Translations under genes and position numbers: made by a program
NCBI RefSeq assembly: GCF_000819865.1
Contig: NZ_CDDF01000017.1
Coordinates: forward strand, 124,001 to 188,000
Length of the DNA stretch: 64,000 bases
DNA from: Aeromonas eucrenophila
GTDB taxonomy: Bacteria; Pseudomonadota; Gammaproteobacteria; Enterobacterales; Aeromonadaceae
Direction: 5' to 3'
The notes under the pieces: model-generated
Seen by the model: the letters and a program-made list of their open reading frames with translations, nothing else
What the model was told of the DNA's origin: nothing
Database searches by the model: none
Part shown: in pieces, positions 1 through 29,000 of the stretch
How the letters are laid out: the number at the start of each line of letters is the position of its first letter
Numbering within the stretch: the stretch's first letter is position 1

Positions 1-210
1 ATCTGTCGCCAGGTGGTGGAAGCCGAGGCCCAGGAGCAGAATAAACCCCTGGAGGCCCACTGGGCTCACATGGTTGTGCACGGCAGTCTGCATCTGCTAG
101 GTTATGACCATATCGAGGACGAGGAAGCCGAGGAGATGGAGGCGCTTGAGCGCGACATCATGCAGGAGCTCGGCTTTGCGGATCCCTATCTCGACGACGA
201 AGTCGAATAA
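1..210 (+). CDS. ybeY: Endoribonuclease YbeY, 3' part only
   Basis: This is the C-terminal part of YbeY, the zinc endoribonuclease involved in 16S rRNA 3' maturation and 70S ribosome quality control. The frame is open from base 1, so the gene starts to the left of the window. The family's metal-binding motif HxxxHxxxxxH is visible, with histidine codons at 79, 91 and 109 (peptide [11 protein letters not shown]). The protein ends in an acidic tail. corC follows, and lnt after it, in the usual ybeY-corC-lnt order. A diverged second copy of the last 90 or so bases lies directly downstream (separate entry). Confidence 0.95.
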
Positions 211-316
211 TAAGGTGAATGAAAGCCGATGAGATGGTGCAGTTCCAGAACGCAACATCACGCAGGAACTCGGCTTTGCGGACCCTTATCTCGACGACGA
301 AGTCGAAGCATAAAGG
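125..316 (+). repeat. Diverged tandem copy of the ybeY 3' end
   Basis: Bases 125-216 (the end of ybeY) are repeated at 223-316. In the core, 151-207 against 251-307, 52 of 57 bases agree. Three of the five differences are synonymous in the ybeY frame (gag/gaa, gat/gac, ccc/cct). The second copy still reads [14 protein letters not shown] followed by Ala and stop. The part before the core is more degraded and carries a 2-base length difference, so the copy is not an intact reading frame. The stretch 211-412 holds only this copy and an inverted repeat. Confidence 0.9.
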
Positions 317-322
317 CACTTG

Positions 323-358
323 GGATGGTCACCTGATTGAAACAGACTGAGACCATCC
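323..358 (+). terminator. Inverted repeat between ybeY and corC, possible terminator
   Basis: GGATGGTC (323-330) pairs with GACCATCC (351-358) across a 20-base loop and is followed by TTATATAG. The long loop and weak T tract make this only a possible terminator or RNA hairpin. Confidence 0.35.
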
Positions 359-412
359 TTATATAGCCAGACAAGCATCCCTATGTGTTCAAACGAGTAA
401 CCAAGAGAGAAA

Positions 413-1294
413 ATGACCGACGATCACCCTAGTACCGGCTCGCCGAAGAAAACCTGGCTAAACAAACTCAGCCAACTCTTCCAGGGCGAGCCAAAAGACC
501 GCAACGATTTGGTGGAAGTGATAGCCGACGCCGAGGAGCGAGACCTCATCGATCAGGACACCAAGGACATGATCGAGGGCGTGCTCGAAATTGCCGAGCT
601 GCGTGTGCGCGACATCATGATCCCCCGCTCCCAGATGGTGACCATCGAGAAGTCCCAACCGGTGGACGAGTTCCTGCCGGTCATCATCGAATCCGGCCAC
701 TCCCGCTTCCCGGTGATCAACGAAGACAAGGATCACGTGGAGGGCATCCTGCTCGCCAAGGATCTGCTGCCGTTCGGCTTCGGTGGCCACCACGCCAGCG
801 AGCCGCTGCAGCTCGAACAGATCCTGCGCCCGACCGTGATAGTACCGGAAAGCAAGCGGGTCGATCGTCTGCTCAAGGAGTTCCGCGAAGAGCGCTACCA
901 CATGGCAATCGTGGTGGACGAGTTTGGTGGTGTCTCCGGTCTGGTGACCATCGAGGACATACTGGAGCTCATCGTCGGCGAGATCGACGACGAGTTCGAC
1001 GACATCGAGGACGAGCCGGAAGAGATCCGCCGCATCAGCAAGCGGGTCTTCTCGGTCAGCGCCCTCACCGAGATCGAGGACTTCAACGACTTCTTCGGCA
1101 CCCAGTTCAGCGATGAAGAGGTAGATACCGTCGGCGGCCTGGTGATGCACGCCTTCAGCCACCTTCCGAAGAAGGGCGAGGAGATCGAGCTCGACGGCTA
1201 CCTGTTCAAGGTGATGCACGCGGACAGGCGTCGCCTGCAACAGCTGCAGGTGAAGATCCCGGAGAATCACGCGGCGGCCCAGCCGGAGTCCTGA
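413..1294 (+). CDS. corC: CorC/YbeX, CBS-domain protein linked to Mg/Co efflux
   Basis: This 293-aa protein matches E. coli CorC (YbeX). It has a short N-terminal leader with no membrane span, paired CBS domains (about residues 65-190, including the conserved MIPRSQM stretch) and a C-terminal CorC_HlyC transporter-associated domain (about 205-285). CorC is a cytosolic factor implicated in magnesium and cobalt efflux; the CBS domains probably sense adenine nucleotides (family knowledge). The ATG at 413 has a purine-rich AAGAGAGA ribosome binding site. It lies between ybeY and lnt as in enterobacteria, but a terminator-like hairpin separates it from lnt. Confidence 0.95.
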   Translation: MTDDHPSTGSPKKTWLNKLSQLFQGEPKDRNDLVEVIADAEERDLIDQDTKDMIEGVLEIAELRVRDIMIPRSQMVTIEKSQPVDEFLPVIIESGHSRFPVINEDKDHVEGILLAKDLLPFGFGGHHASEPLQLEQILRPTVIVPESKRVDRLLKEFREERYHMAIVVDEFGGVSGLVTIEDILELIVGEIDDEFDDIEDEPEEIRRISKRVFSVSALTEIEDFNDFFGTQFSDEEVDTVGGLVMHAFSHLPKKGEEIELDGYLFKVMHADRRRLQQLQVKIPENHAAAQPES

Positions 1295-26694: not shown

Positions 26695-27213
26695 ATGAAG
26701 ATAGGTTTGTTTTACGGCTCTACCACCTGTTACACCGAGATGGCCGCCGAGAAGATCCGCGCCCTCATCGGCCCCGAGCTGGTCGATCTCCACAACATCA
26801 AGGATGTGCCCCTGGTCCGCATGCAGGAGTACGACATCCTGATCCTGGGCATCTCCACCTGGGACTTTGGCGAGCTGCAGGAAGACTGGGAGTCCCGCTG
26901 GGAGGACATCGCCGATCTCCACCTGGAAGGCTGCATCATCGCCCTGTTTGGCATGGGTGATCAGCTGGGCTATGGCGAATGGTATCAGGACGCCCTCGGC
27001 CTGCTGCACGATCAGCTGGTGCCAAAAGGCGTCAAGCTGGTGGGCTACTGGCCCAACGAAGGCTACGAGTTCGATGCCTCCAAGGCGCTGATCGACGATG
27101 GCCGCCACTTCGTCGGCCTGGCCCTCGACGACGCTAATCAATACGATCAGACCGAGCCCCGCATCGAGCAGTGGGTCGATCAGATCCTGAGTGAGATCCA
27201 CGAGTTACTCTGA
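26695..27213 (+). CDS. fldB: Flavodoxin FldB
   Basis: This FMN-binding electron carrier of 172 aa starts at ATG 26695. It has the phosphate-binding loop GSTTCYTE and the [15 protein letters not shown] and GDQLGYGEW stretches of FldB. The E. coli fldB-xerD pair is likewise divergent. A diverged copy of its last 30 codons or so follows directly (separate entry). Confidence 0.95.
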
Positions 27214-27313
27214 TCTTGCCTGCTCAACGATGCCAGCCGATGCGACCAGACCGACCCCGCATCGAGCAGTGGGTCGATCAGATCCTCGGCGAGATCCACG
27301 AGCTGCTGTGATC
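27121..27313 (+). repeat. Diverged tandem copy of the fldB 3' end
   Basis: The last part of fldB (27121-27215) is repeated at about 27220-27313. In the core (27145-27215 against 27244-27313) there are seven substitutions and one 1-base deletion in about 70 bases. The second copy reads [20 protein letters not shown] against [20 protein letters not shown], but the deletion breaks the frame before it. Upstream, LDDANQY in the gene corresponds to LNDASRC. Most codon differences are conservative or silent. The remaining gap to 27493 holds only an imperfect hairpin (about 27316-27350). Confidence 0.9.
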
Positions 27314-27493
27314 GCACCTGGGTGGCTTGCTTGAAGCCACCGGGTGCAGATCTCGAGCCGATTGCCCCAATCGGTATCATTGCATGACGCCATGACGACT
27401 TTTTTGCACAGGTCTGTAACAATGAAACCGCCCCCAGTCACCCTCGGCGCCGGGGGCGGCCGTGAACAGGCTCAGACCAGAAAAGGATATGCT

Positions 27494-28894
27494 ATGACCC
27501 CATTCTCCCTGTTGACCCCCACCATTGCCCGCGATGTGCTCGATCACGCGCTGCGGCTTGGCGCCGACTTCGCCGAGCTGTTCGTGGAGCGCAAGCGTCG
27601 CAGCCAGCTCAGCCTGCTCTCCAGCCAGATCGAAAACATCAGCGGCGGCCTCGATTTCGGCATAGGCGTGCGGCTCTGCTACGGCCACAAGGTGCTGTAT
27701 GGCTACACCAATCTGGCGGATCGCGACGAGCTGCTGCGCATCGTGAGCCTCTTGGCAGCCAAGGACAGGCGCGACCCAGTGGTGACCGCCACCGCCTTCG
27801 ATTTCACCCGCTTCACCGATCGCAACCCGGTGGCGCTGCCGCTGTCGGCGGACAAGCTGCTGGAGCAGAAGATTGCCTACCTGCACGCCATGGATGCCGC
27901 GGCTCGCGCCGAGAGCGCCAAGGTGAGCCAGTTCTCCGCCAATGCGCTGGGCTGGGAGCAGGAGGTGGAGATCTTCAACAGCGAAGGGCTCATGGTCAGC
28001 GATCGCCGCCACTACAACCGCATCATGGCCCAGACCATAGCCATGGACGGGAGCGAGCAGAGCATGGGCTACGAGGCCCCCGGCGCCCTGATGGGCTGGG
28101 AGCACGCGGCCCTCATCGATCCCCGGGAGCTGGCCCTCACCGCCACCCGCCAGGCGCTGGTGAAACTCGGCGCGGCCCCCTGCCCGAGCGGCAACTTGCC
28201 GGTCATCATGGAGAGCGGCTTCGGTGGCGTCATCTTCCACGAGGCTTGCGGCCACCTGCTGGAGACCACCTCGGTGGCGAAGAAAGCCTCGGTGTTCCAC
28301 GACAAGATGGGGCAGCTGATTGCCAACCCGGCGGTGAGCGCAGTGGACGAAGGTCTGCAGGCCAACGCCTGGGGTTCCATCAACGTCGACGACGAAGGCA
28401 TGGCTACCCAGCACACCCAGCTCATCAAGGACGGCGTGCTGACCGGCTTCCTGGTGGACCGCATGGGAGCGCTGAAGACCGGCCATGCCCGCACCGGCTC
28501 GGGTCGGCGCGAATCCTACCGCTTCGCCCCCGCCTCGCGCATGCGCAACACCTTTATCGAGCCGGGCAACCATTCGCTCGATGAGATGCTGGCCACGGTG
28601 GAGCACGGCATCTACGCCAGGAAGATGGGGGGCGGCTCTGTGCAGCCGGGCACCGGCGAGTTCAACTTCAACGTGCAGGAGGCCTACCTCATCGAGGGGG
28701 GCAAGATCACCAAACCGCTCAAATCGGCGACCCTGATCGGCACCGGGCCTCAGGTGCTCAAGGAGATCTCCATGGTGGGCCGCGATCTCGCACTGGCCGC
28801 CGGCATGTGCGGCTCGGTCTCGGGCTCCGTGCCCACCTCGGTCGGCCAGCCGCCACTCAAGGTCGACAACATCCTCGTAGGGGGGAACGCCTGA
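27494..28894 (+). CDS. TldD-family metallopeptidase
   Basis: TldD and TldE form a heterodimeric zinc protease that degrades unfolded peptides and matures microcin B17 and CcdA in E. coli. This 466-aa protein has the TldD zinc motif HEACGH (about residues 247-252) and the family's closing VGQPPLKVDN. ATG 27494 follows AAAAGGA. It is shorter than and diverged from E. coli TldD, so it is probably a second, paralogous set; whether the canonical tldD exists elsewhere cannot be seen. Its partner lies directly downstream. Confidence 0.9.
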   Translation: MTPFSLLTPTIARDVLDHALRLGADFAELFVERKRRSQLSLLSSQIENISGGLDFGIGVRLCYGHKVLYGYTNLADRDELLRIVSLLAAKDRRDPVVTATAFDFTRFTDRNPVALPLSADKLLEQKIAYLHAMDAAARAESAKVSQFSANALGWEQEVEIFNSEGLMVSDRRHYNRIMAQTIAMDGSEQSMGYEAPGALMGWEHAALIDPRELALTATRQALVKLGAAPCPSGNLPVIMESGFGGVIFHEACGHLLETTSVAKKASVFHDKMGQLIANPAVSAVDEGLQANAWGSINVDDEGMATQHTQLIKDGVLTGFLVDRMGALKTGHARTGSGRRESYRFAPASRMRNTFIEPGNHSLDEMLATVEHGIYARKMGGGSVQPGTGEFNFNVQEAYLIEGGKITKPLKSATLIGTGPQVLKEISMVGRDLALAAGMCGSVSGSVPTSVGQPPLKVDNILVGGNA

Positions 28895-29000
28895 TGAGCA
28901 CAATTGACAATCTGCCGGGCTCGGTTTCCCTCCAGGCCTCGGTCGGCCAGCCGCCGCTCAAGGTCGACAACATTCTCGTGGGGGGGAACGCCTGATGAGC
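28836..29000 (+). repeat. Near-identical tandem copy of the tldD 3' end
   Basis: Bases 28836-28899 (the end of the tldD homologue plus TGATGAGC) recur at 28937-29000 with 61 of 64 bases identical; all three differences are third-position changes. Both copies read SVGQPPLKVDNILVGGNA-stop and overlap an ATGAGC start. After the first copy that start opens a 33-codon frame beginning MSTIDNL, which resembles the true downstream start MSQLDMNTL and then runs into the second copy. Confidence 0.95.

Follow-up and report, generated by a model that had tools for sequence, protein, structure and literature searches.

In the Aeromonas genomes examined, about one gene end in fifty carries, just downstream, a diverged second copy of its own last 30 to 160 letters; the bacteria of other groups that were sampled have few such tail copies or none. 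They were noticed in a stretch of 64,000 nucleotides from Aeromonas eucrenophila (assembly GCF_000819865.1, contig NZ_CDDF01000017.1, positions 124,001 to 188,000 of the forward strand), here called the window. A preliminary description of the window held that six plus-strand genes, ybeY, rlmH, lipB, lipA, fldB and a tldD homologue, each have one, and that the copies look like tails of a different allele of the same gene. The analysis reported here finds the phenomenon to be spread over the genome and over the genus, rather than special to one region as had been supposed. The reading that we favor, with about even confidence, is that tail copies are boundary duplications of rare origin, which homologous recombination then spreads and cuts anew, pushing resident tails aside.

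Tail copies across the genus and in the window

Here, a gene end was scored as having a copy when the alignment reached a score of at least 54 and an identity of at least 70%, and ended no more than 9 nucleotides from the stop codon. By this measure, 19 of the 919 gene 3' ends sampled genome-wide in four species of Aeromonas have a tail copy, with cases on both strands: 9/312 in the genome of the window (with the window itself excluded), 3/304 in genome G023, 4/154 in G010 and 3/149 in G035. Two of the 19 are whole-gene paralogues, leaving 17 without them. The controls together give 1/1298 (Fisher p = 6e-7 against 19/919), divided into 0/600 in 55 loci that are nearly all from Vibrionaceae, 0/289 in three further genera from the same family, 1/304 in four genomes of the class, and 0/105 in E. 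coli K-12. All gene calls were made by a script of our own, and those for the controls are incomplete, the 600 ends of the Vibrionaceae group having been tested in 1.07 Mb. Carried out on samples, the genome-wide scan that the preliminary description had proposed shows an excess over controls.

The same samples rule out specificity for strand or region. The absence of minus-strand cases, claimed from the window, holds there but not genome-wide, where loci L145, L147, L169, L223 and L227, among others, provide them. An assembly artefact is also rejected, as arrays (a gene end with its copies) are present in the single-contig genomes G010 and G023 too. Around fldB, one scan finds copies at 23/420 3' ends against 0/399 5' ends; another, in named species, finds them at 20/473 3' ends and 1/449 5' ends, with 0/600 at the 3' ends of the control group. 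The two scans overlap in species.

Gene starts can have head copies too, though more rarely: the same script finds 5/869 in Aeromonas against 2/1264 in the controls, so that an excess at gene starts is not established. A strict specificity for 3' ends is weakened by three head copies in one stretch of G023 and one in G035. The G023 stretch (L149:3643-14322) has three genes within 11 kb, each with a partial head copy just upstream of its true start, a mirror image of the tail copies; we take the three to be DUF1249-like, YqiA-like and ParC-like genes.

Repeats of other kinds also occur. An intergenic tandem array in G023 (L147:1838-2721) has several copies that are 80-100% identical, with shifts near multiples of about 100 bases. 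Genome G000 has an intergenic direct repeat of 88 bases, 100% identical with a spacing of 130 (L158:13006-13223), possibly a fresh local duplication. It also has tandem small-protein paralogues about 70-80% alike in the aligned part of their DNA (L170:15803-17011), which mimic tail copies in the scan.

The features of the window that matter here, with gene names based on NCBIfam and Pfam models, are as follows.

1..210, plus strand: 3' part of ybeY, whose start lies outside the window; own tail with stop TAA at 208-210; NCBIfam TIGR00043, 81.1 bits against a cut-off of 45
222..313, plus strand: second ybeY tail copy, aligned over about 222-307, stop TAA at 311-313, after a linker at 211-221; 71/83 identical
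9150..9617, plus strand: rlmH; NCBIfam NF000984, 307.7 bits against a cut-off of 242
9634..9668, plus strand: decayed rlmH tail copy, stop TGA at 9666-9668; alignment score 30
16699..17388, plus strand: lipB; possible decayed tail copy at about 17434-17473, coordinates by eye
17492..18439, plus strand: lipA; proposed tail copy at about 18453-18472, not significant
26695..27213, plus strand: fldB; NCBIfam NF009023, 307.7 bits against a cut-off of 215
27218..27311, plus strand: second fldB tail copy, stop TGA at 27309-27311, after a linker at 27214-27217; 80/94 identical
27494..28894, plus strand: TldD/PmbA-family gene, TldD-like; Pfam PF19289, PF19290 and PF01523
28894..28995, plus strand: insert in which another version of the next gene's head runs in frame into a second tail of the tldD-like gene
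28916-28995, plus strand: tldD-like tail copy, 69/80 identical
28995..30335, plus strand: PmbA-like gene, beginning in the tail copy's stop; Pfam PF19289, PF01523 and PF19290

Two tests were applied to these genes. Gapped alignment of each gene end against its downstream DNA gives scores of 111-119 for the ybeY, fldB and tldD-like copies, where the maximum among just under 3000 mismatched pairs is 65.5. In the second test, 120 bases were compared with the 150 downstream for 60 genes, with 1000 block shuffles each. Its p values, uncorrected for the 60 tests, are 0.001 (the floor) for those same three genes, 0.002 for rlmH, 0.003 for lipB and 0.075 for lipA. A copy stands at the same place in 6/30 rlmH loci of the genus, with scores of 41-45; the best of 306 unrelated pairs, for which the tail of L355, one of these loci, was used, scores 26, and the window's own copy scores 30. 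A protein search for rlmH returned no downstream tail match, the copies being visible in DNA alignment only, and the case for rlmH therefore rests on DNA alignment. For lipB, a protein search of 37 genomes, from which the loci could not be cut out, likewise returned no downstream tail match, and its copy appears marginal. Thus, of the six genes first proposed, ybeY, fldB and the tldD-like gene stand as strong cases and rlmH as a decayed one, lipB is left marginal, and lipA has been dropped. The figure of about 95% identity first given for the tldD copy describes 61/64 bases across its end, and not the copy as a whole.

The tldD-like copy lies in an insert with an open frame of 33 codons, whose ATG overlaps the first stop and whose final stop overlaps the next start. 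Both genes of this pair (27494-30335) fall under the NCBIfam cut-offs for TldD and PmbA, the first with 281.5 bits in the TldD model against a cut-off of 513. Its protein has its nearest named locus in A. aquatica, at 98%. Two more TldD/PmbA-family homologues are found in the same genome, on contigs C14 and C8.

Anatomy of the arrays and the alleles they carry

At boundaries that have tail copies, the upstream and downstream genes are both intact. In several cases the repeated unit plainly extends across a gene boundary, and the order is a first stop, a linker, a partial tail with its own stop, and then the next gene in its native context. The copies are spaced about 50-180 bases apart (33 in one case), and the spacers between them measure 0-76 bases in 16 cases. 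The largest array, at ybeY of A. rivipollensis, has three extra copies with a spacing of 101. At the tldD-like/pmbA-like boundary, as at L160, L169 and L223, the linker is an alternative head of the next gene; elsewhere, for example at L216 (astD), it is unlike the sequence after the second stop. Two adjoining genes in G000 (L169:9188-11099), one an ABC-transporter ATPase by Pfam, both have tail copies and in-frame open reading frames (ORFs).

The same boundaries recur across the genus. Copies are found at 7/30 ybeY loci, at 12/30 astD loci, and at 11/32 fldB loci with a score of at least 44, two of the last being weak. The single-copy arrangement, for which the preliminary description had suggested searching other strains, exists in sister species at these boundaries. 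Linkers, in turn, are common to several species at ybeY, at astD (types 1 and 2) and, by eye, at fldB. This means that the arrays at one boundary are not all independent. In astD type 1 (G002, G010, G023 and G024), five of the six possible pairs were compared: their first 60 bases past the stop agree at 95-98%, while the mean over the gene's eleven 100-base windows that precede the last one is 85-92% (range 67-99). For type 2, the identity between linkers is 95-96% in close pairs and 90% for G026 and G032.

What the copies resemble depends on the distance from the stop. Synonymous and nonsynonymous codon differences between gene and copy number 78:47 within 30 nucleotides of the stop, 34:63 at 30-60, 20:77 at 60-90 and 12:42 at 90-150. 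These were counted in 42 events from 1535 tests, not independent where the same gene occurs in several species, and with the two L170 paralogues left out. The bias to silent changes, first reported for whole copies, is accordingly a property of the part nearest the stop, the inner parts differing mainly by nonsynonymous changes. The end of the copy nearest the stop appears to behave as a living allele and the inner part as decaying DNA.

If so, one would like to know whose allele it is. In A. piscicola, the fldB body and its own tail are nearest to A. bestiarum (0.984 and 0.983), whereas the outer copy and its flank are nearest to A. salmonicida (0.967 and 0.985), which has a single copy. The middle fldB copy of G023 matches the A. 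piscicola gene tail at 60/60 bases and its own gene at 51/60. At ybeY, where the linker is common to several species, the outer tail and flank in A. piscicola and A. rivipollensis are, by eye, like those of single-copy species, and the gene itself ends in a different allele. At astD in G001, G002 and G012, the outer tail and flank equal the single-copy end of a sister, and again the gene's own tail represents a different allele. Among 16 trios, in which resident and donor were picked by eye, astD of G002 is the cleanest. Here, the gene follows the resident at 4/4 sites from -148 to -106 and the donor at 9/10 from -58 to -1, so that the switch lies somewhere from -106 to -58 relative to the stop; the outer tail follows the resident at 9/10 sites.

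Some arrays also preserve reading frame. Where the second gene starts no more than 12 nucleotides from the end of the first copy, the insert is an in-frame bridging ORF in 6/6 listed pairs, and the start of that ORF lies as far from the first stop as the start of gene 2 lies from the second. ATG-led in-frame ORFs occur in the astD linkers of 3/4 type 1 loci and 6/8 type 2 loci, and the rlmH loci shown likewise have them starting from the linker. Over astD loci L261-L290, 9/12 copy-bearing loci have an ATG near the start of the linker, in frame with the C-terminal peptide.

Proposed displacement of resident tails and its rivals

The favored reading, displacement by recombination, would run as follows. 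Once or a few times at some boundaries, a short tandem duplication would have taken in the last part of the first gene together with the gap behind it, in some cases also the head of the second gene, and would have survived because both genes stay whole. The resulting unit of tail, linker and second tail would then be moved among Aeromonas by homologous recombination, probably through natural transformation. Through crossovers within the gene's tail and the outer copy, a resident with one copy would acquire the tail and linker of the donor; the right-hand arm would be provided by the repeated tail. The tail that the resident had before would be shifted downstream together with its native flank. 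Repeated exchange would produce more copies, trim the donor DNA towards the linker, and keep the outer end of a copy like the living allele while its inner part decays. That donor tracts end at the linker could be explained by strong heterology there or by selection. Where genes overlap or touch, the result would be a small in-frame ORF reaching from the old overlap to the new, presumably preserving translational coupling. The copies themselves would be neutral.

A broader and objective comparison was made with a neighbor test. For each array, this takes the genome whose flank is most similar and asks which of two sequences is closer to the terminal tail there, the outer tail or that of the gene itself. 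It left out copies with an alignment ending more than 14 nucleotides from the stop, and copies less than 70% identical to the gene over their last 45 bases; its rows include the same gene in several species, and 3/7 ybeY arrays passed the filters. The counts (outer tail closer, gene closer, ties) are 10:0:1 for astD, 4:0 for the pmbA-like gene and 2:1 for ybeY.

Several observations, however, weigh against displacement. The neighbor test as a whole is mixed, with the outer tail closer in 21 arrays, the gene closer in 10 and ties in 3 (34 arrays, six genes; p = 0.07); fldB gives 3:3:2, the 33713 gene (YfhL family) 2:2 and the TldD-like gene 0:4. Among the window's own genes, ybeY and the TldD-like gene come out with the gene closer and fldB with a tie, so that the claim of another allele within the window rests mainly on fldB, whose copy matches its own gene at 51/60 bases and those of other species at up to 55/60. 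Other astD trios are less clean, the outer tail of G010 being mostly donor-like against G017, and G004 being mixed. The linkers of astD type 2 are 68-76% alike when G032 or G026 is compared with G003 or G001, and so are not always above the gene. The six overlapping pairs include three tldD-like arrays, one of them partly masked, and the first unit of the tldD-like array of A. aquatica breaks the frame. Direct repeats at a distance of about 100 bases would be expected to be unstable, and a neutral model leaves their persistence unexplained. Each species is represented by a single genome, and in none of them was the birth of a copy seen. The claim that the tails come from another allele is thus supported for fldB (A. 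piscicola), astD (G001, G002 and G012) and ybeY (A. piscicola and A. rivipollensis), but not for the tldD-like arrays.

Could the process be purely local? Slippage or unequal exchange might duplicate a boundary in one genome, with drift and gene conversion between the neighboring copies doing the rest. Several copies are indeed closest to their own gene, such as copies 1 and 2 of caviae fldB and the tldD-like arrays of the neighbor test. The tecta fldB copy matches its own gene at 120/126, yet the tail of another species fits it as well (59/60 against 58/60). Intergenic tandem repeats occur too, and boundary duplications leave both genes intact, so that selection alone would leave copies at boundaries. 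Against such a process stand a copy identical to another species' allele, as in the fldB array of G023, mosaic boundaries, linkers common across species and the gradient in silent changes; near absence from the other genera sampled is also left unexplained. As a general cause, it is rather unlikely. Local duplication alone may nevertheless account for some arrays (the TldD-like ones, perhaps tecta fldB), and is probably the first step everywhere.

A second alternative, which we consider distinctly unlikely, treats the copies as minute mobile cassettes of about 100-130 bases, made up of a gene tail, its stop and a short linker. These would insert into the matching gene's tail and displace the resident tail, with mobility coming from homologous recombination between the repeated tails alone, at dozens of loci per genome. 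The end of the host gene would then be both target and passenger.

It is quite improbable that the copies are kept for a function, be it as a translated small ORF with the C-terminal peptide at its end, in relieving operon polarity, or as an RNA element. The bridging ORFs of the six listed pairs, the ATG-led frames at the astD and rlmH loci, and the astD type 1 linkers, which are more alike than their genes, all point that way. Of all 33 array families, however, 16 have an in-frame linker ATG, where the other two frames have one in 11 and in 9 (astD type 1 counted twice), which is not a clear excess, and a general small-ORF function was therefore set aside. Stop or frame is lost in some copies, the inner parts differ mostly by nonsynonymous changes, and the copy is absent from over half of the ybeY, fldB and astD loci examined.

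The preliminary description had imagined a repeated joining of broken ends. In its described form, homology-facilitated illegitimate recombination (HFIR), homologous pairing at one end would be followed each time by non-homologous joining before the end of the resident gene. The anatomy fits, and the process has been described in competent bacteria, where it is rare according to the portion of one report drawn on here (PMC5361080). At ybeY and astD, the presence of the same linkers in more than one species argues against a fresh origin for most of the arrays; a single duplication at each boundary, or a few, travelling by recombination, would suffice. Repeated joining is thus not needed, and HFIR is very doubtful as the general source.

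Diversity-generating retroelements and integrase attachment sites both yield repeats at gene 3' ends. In the former, differences concentrate at adenines of the template copy, and a reverse transcriptase gene lies nearby. That the tail copies are relics of either is barely credible: mismatches fall at 89/760 A and 155/1128 C of the copy, a missing adenine bias that disfavors the retroelement, and the spacers noted above leave no room for an integrative element between the copies. Loss of exonuclease I was also rejected as a cause, its C-terminal family being present in 13/13 Aeromonas genomes searched.

Relation to described systems and biological meaning

The closest described process seems to be the C-terminal displacement of rhs genes, from which the Aeromonas case would differ in affecting ordinary genes. 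There, in the part of the account considered here (PMC2935791), recombination, proposed to pass through circular intermediates, shunts old ends downstream. As in Aeromonas, a working gene end is kept, the former end lies downstream and arrays form; homologous recombination between strains is also invoked. An intact gene followed by one or more dissociated former ends is just what is found here, and the former end is still attached in a relative for fldB (A. piscicola and A. salmonicida), ybeY and astD, though not for the tldD-like arrays. The rhs tips, however, are non-homologous variable ends with core fragments (PMC2935791, same part). No non-homologous alternative tip is found in the Aeromonas arrays; what is displaced there is the same short tail in allelic form, in ordinary genes, at a spacing of about 50-180 bases.

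Orphan immunity arrays of the type VI secretion system in Vibrio cholerae offer a second parallel. As an excerpt of that work describes them (PMC5361080), homology anchors one side, the displaced resident part is kept downstream, and the arrays record sequential events. There, however, whole effector-immunity modules displace effector genes, while in Aeromonas the displaced part is a gene tail of about 100 bases.

In an HFIR assay in E. coli, the sections used here (PMC3240628) report partial lacZ duplications in 56/60 clones, of 109-950 bp in the 14 sequenced, which the authors ascribe to single crossovers. A mosaic junction of donor and resident at one side is common to that process, as far as these sections and those of a second report go (PMC3240628, PMC2884548), and to the arrays described here. 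Unlike HFIR products, the cleaner astD cases have both junctions inside homologous tails, and their linkers are common to several species. Transformation merodiploids of Streptococcus pneumoniae, in the corresponding part of their description (PMC3784515), also form tandem duplications from incoming DNA through alternative pairing of repeats; those are about 100-900 kb long and bordered by repeats, against about 100 bases in Aeromonas.

A narrow phrase search, which covered the literature in part, found no description of such tail copies in Aeromonas; this is weak evidence of absence. Annotation probably overlooks such copies, or labels them short hypothetical ORFs.

If displacement is correct, swaps of alleles from species to species can be read from the ends of ordinary genes in one genus, and crossover sites can be located there to within some tens of bases. 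This would provide a natural assay of where recombination tracts end, of barriers set by heterology, and of translational coupling. It would also raise the question of why direct repeats that are prone to collapse persist at 19/919 gene ends in Aeromonas, against 1/1298 elsewhere in the bacteria sampled.

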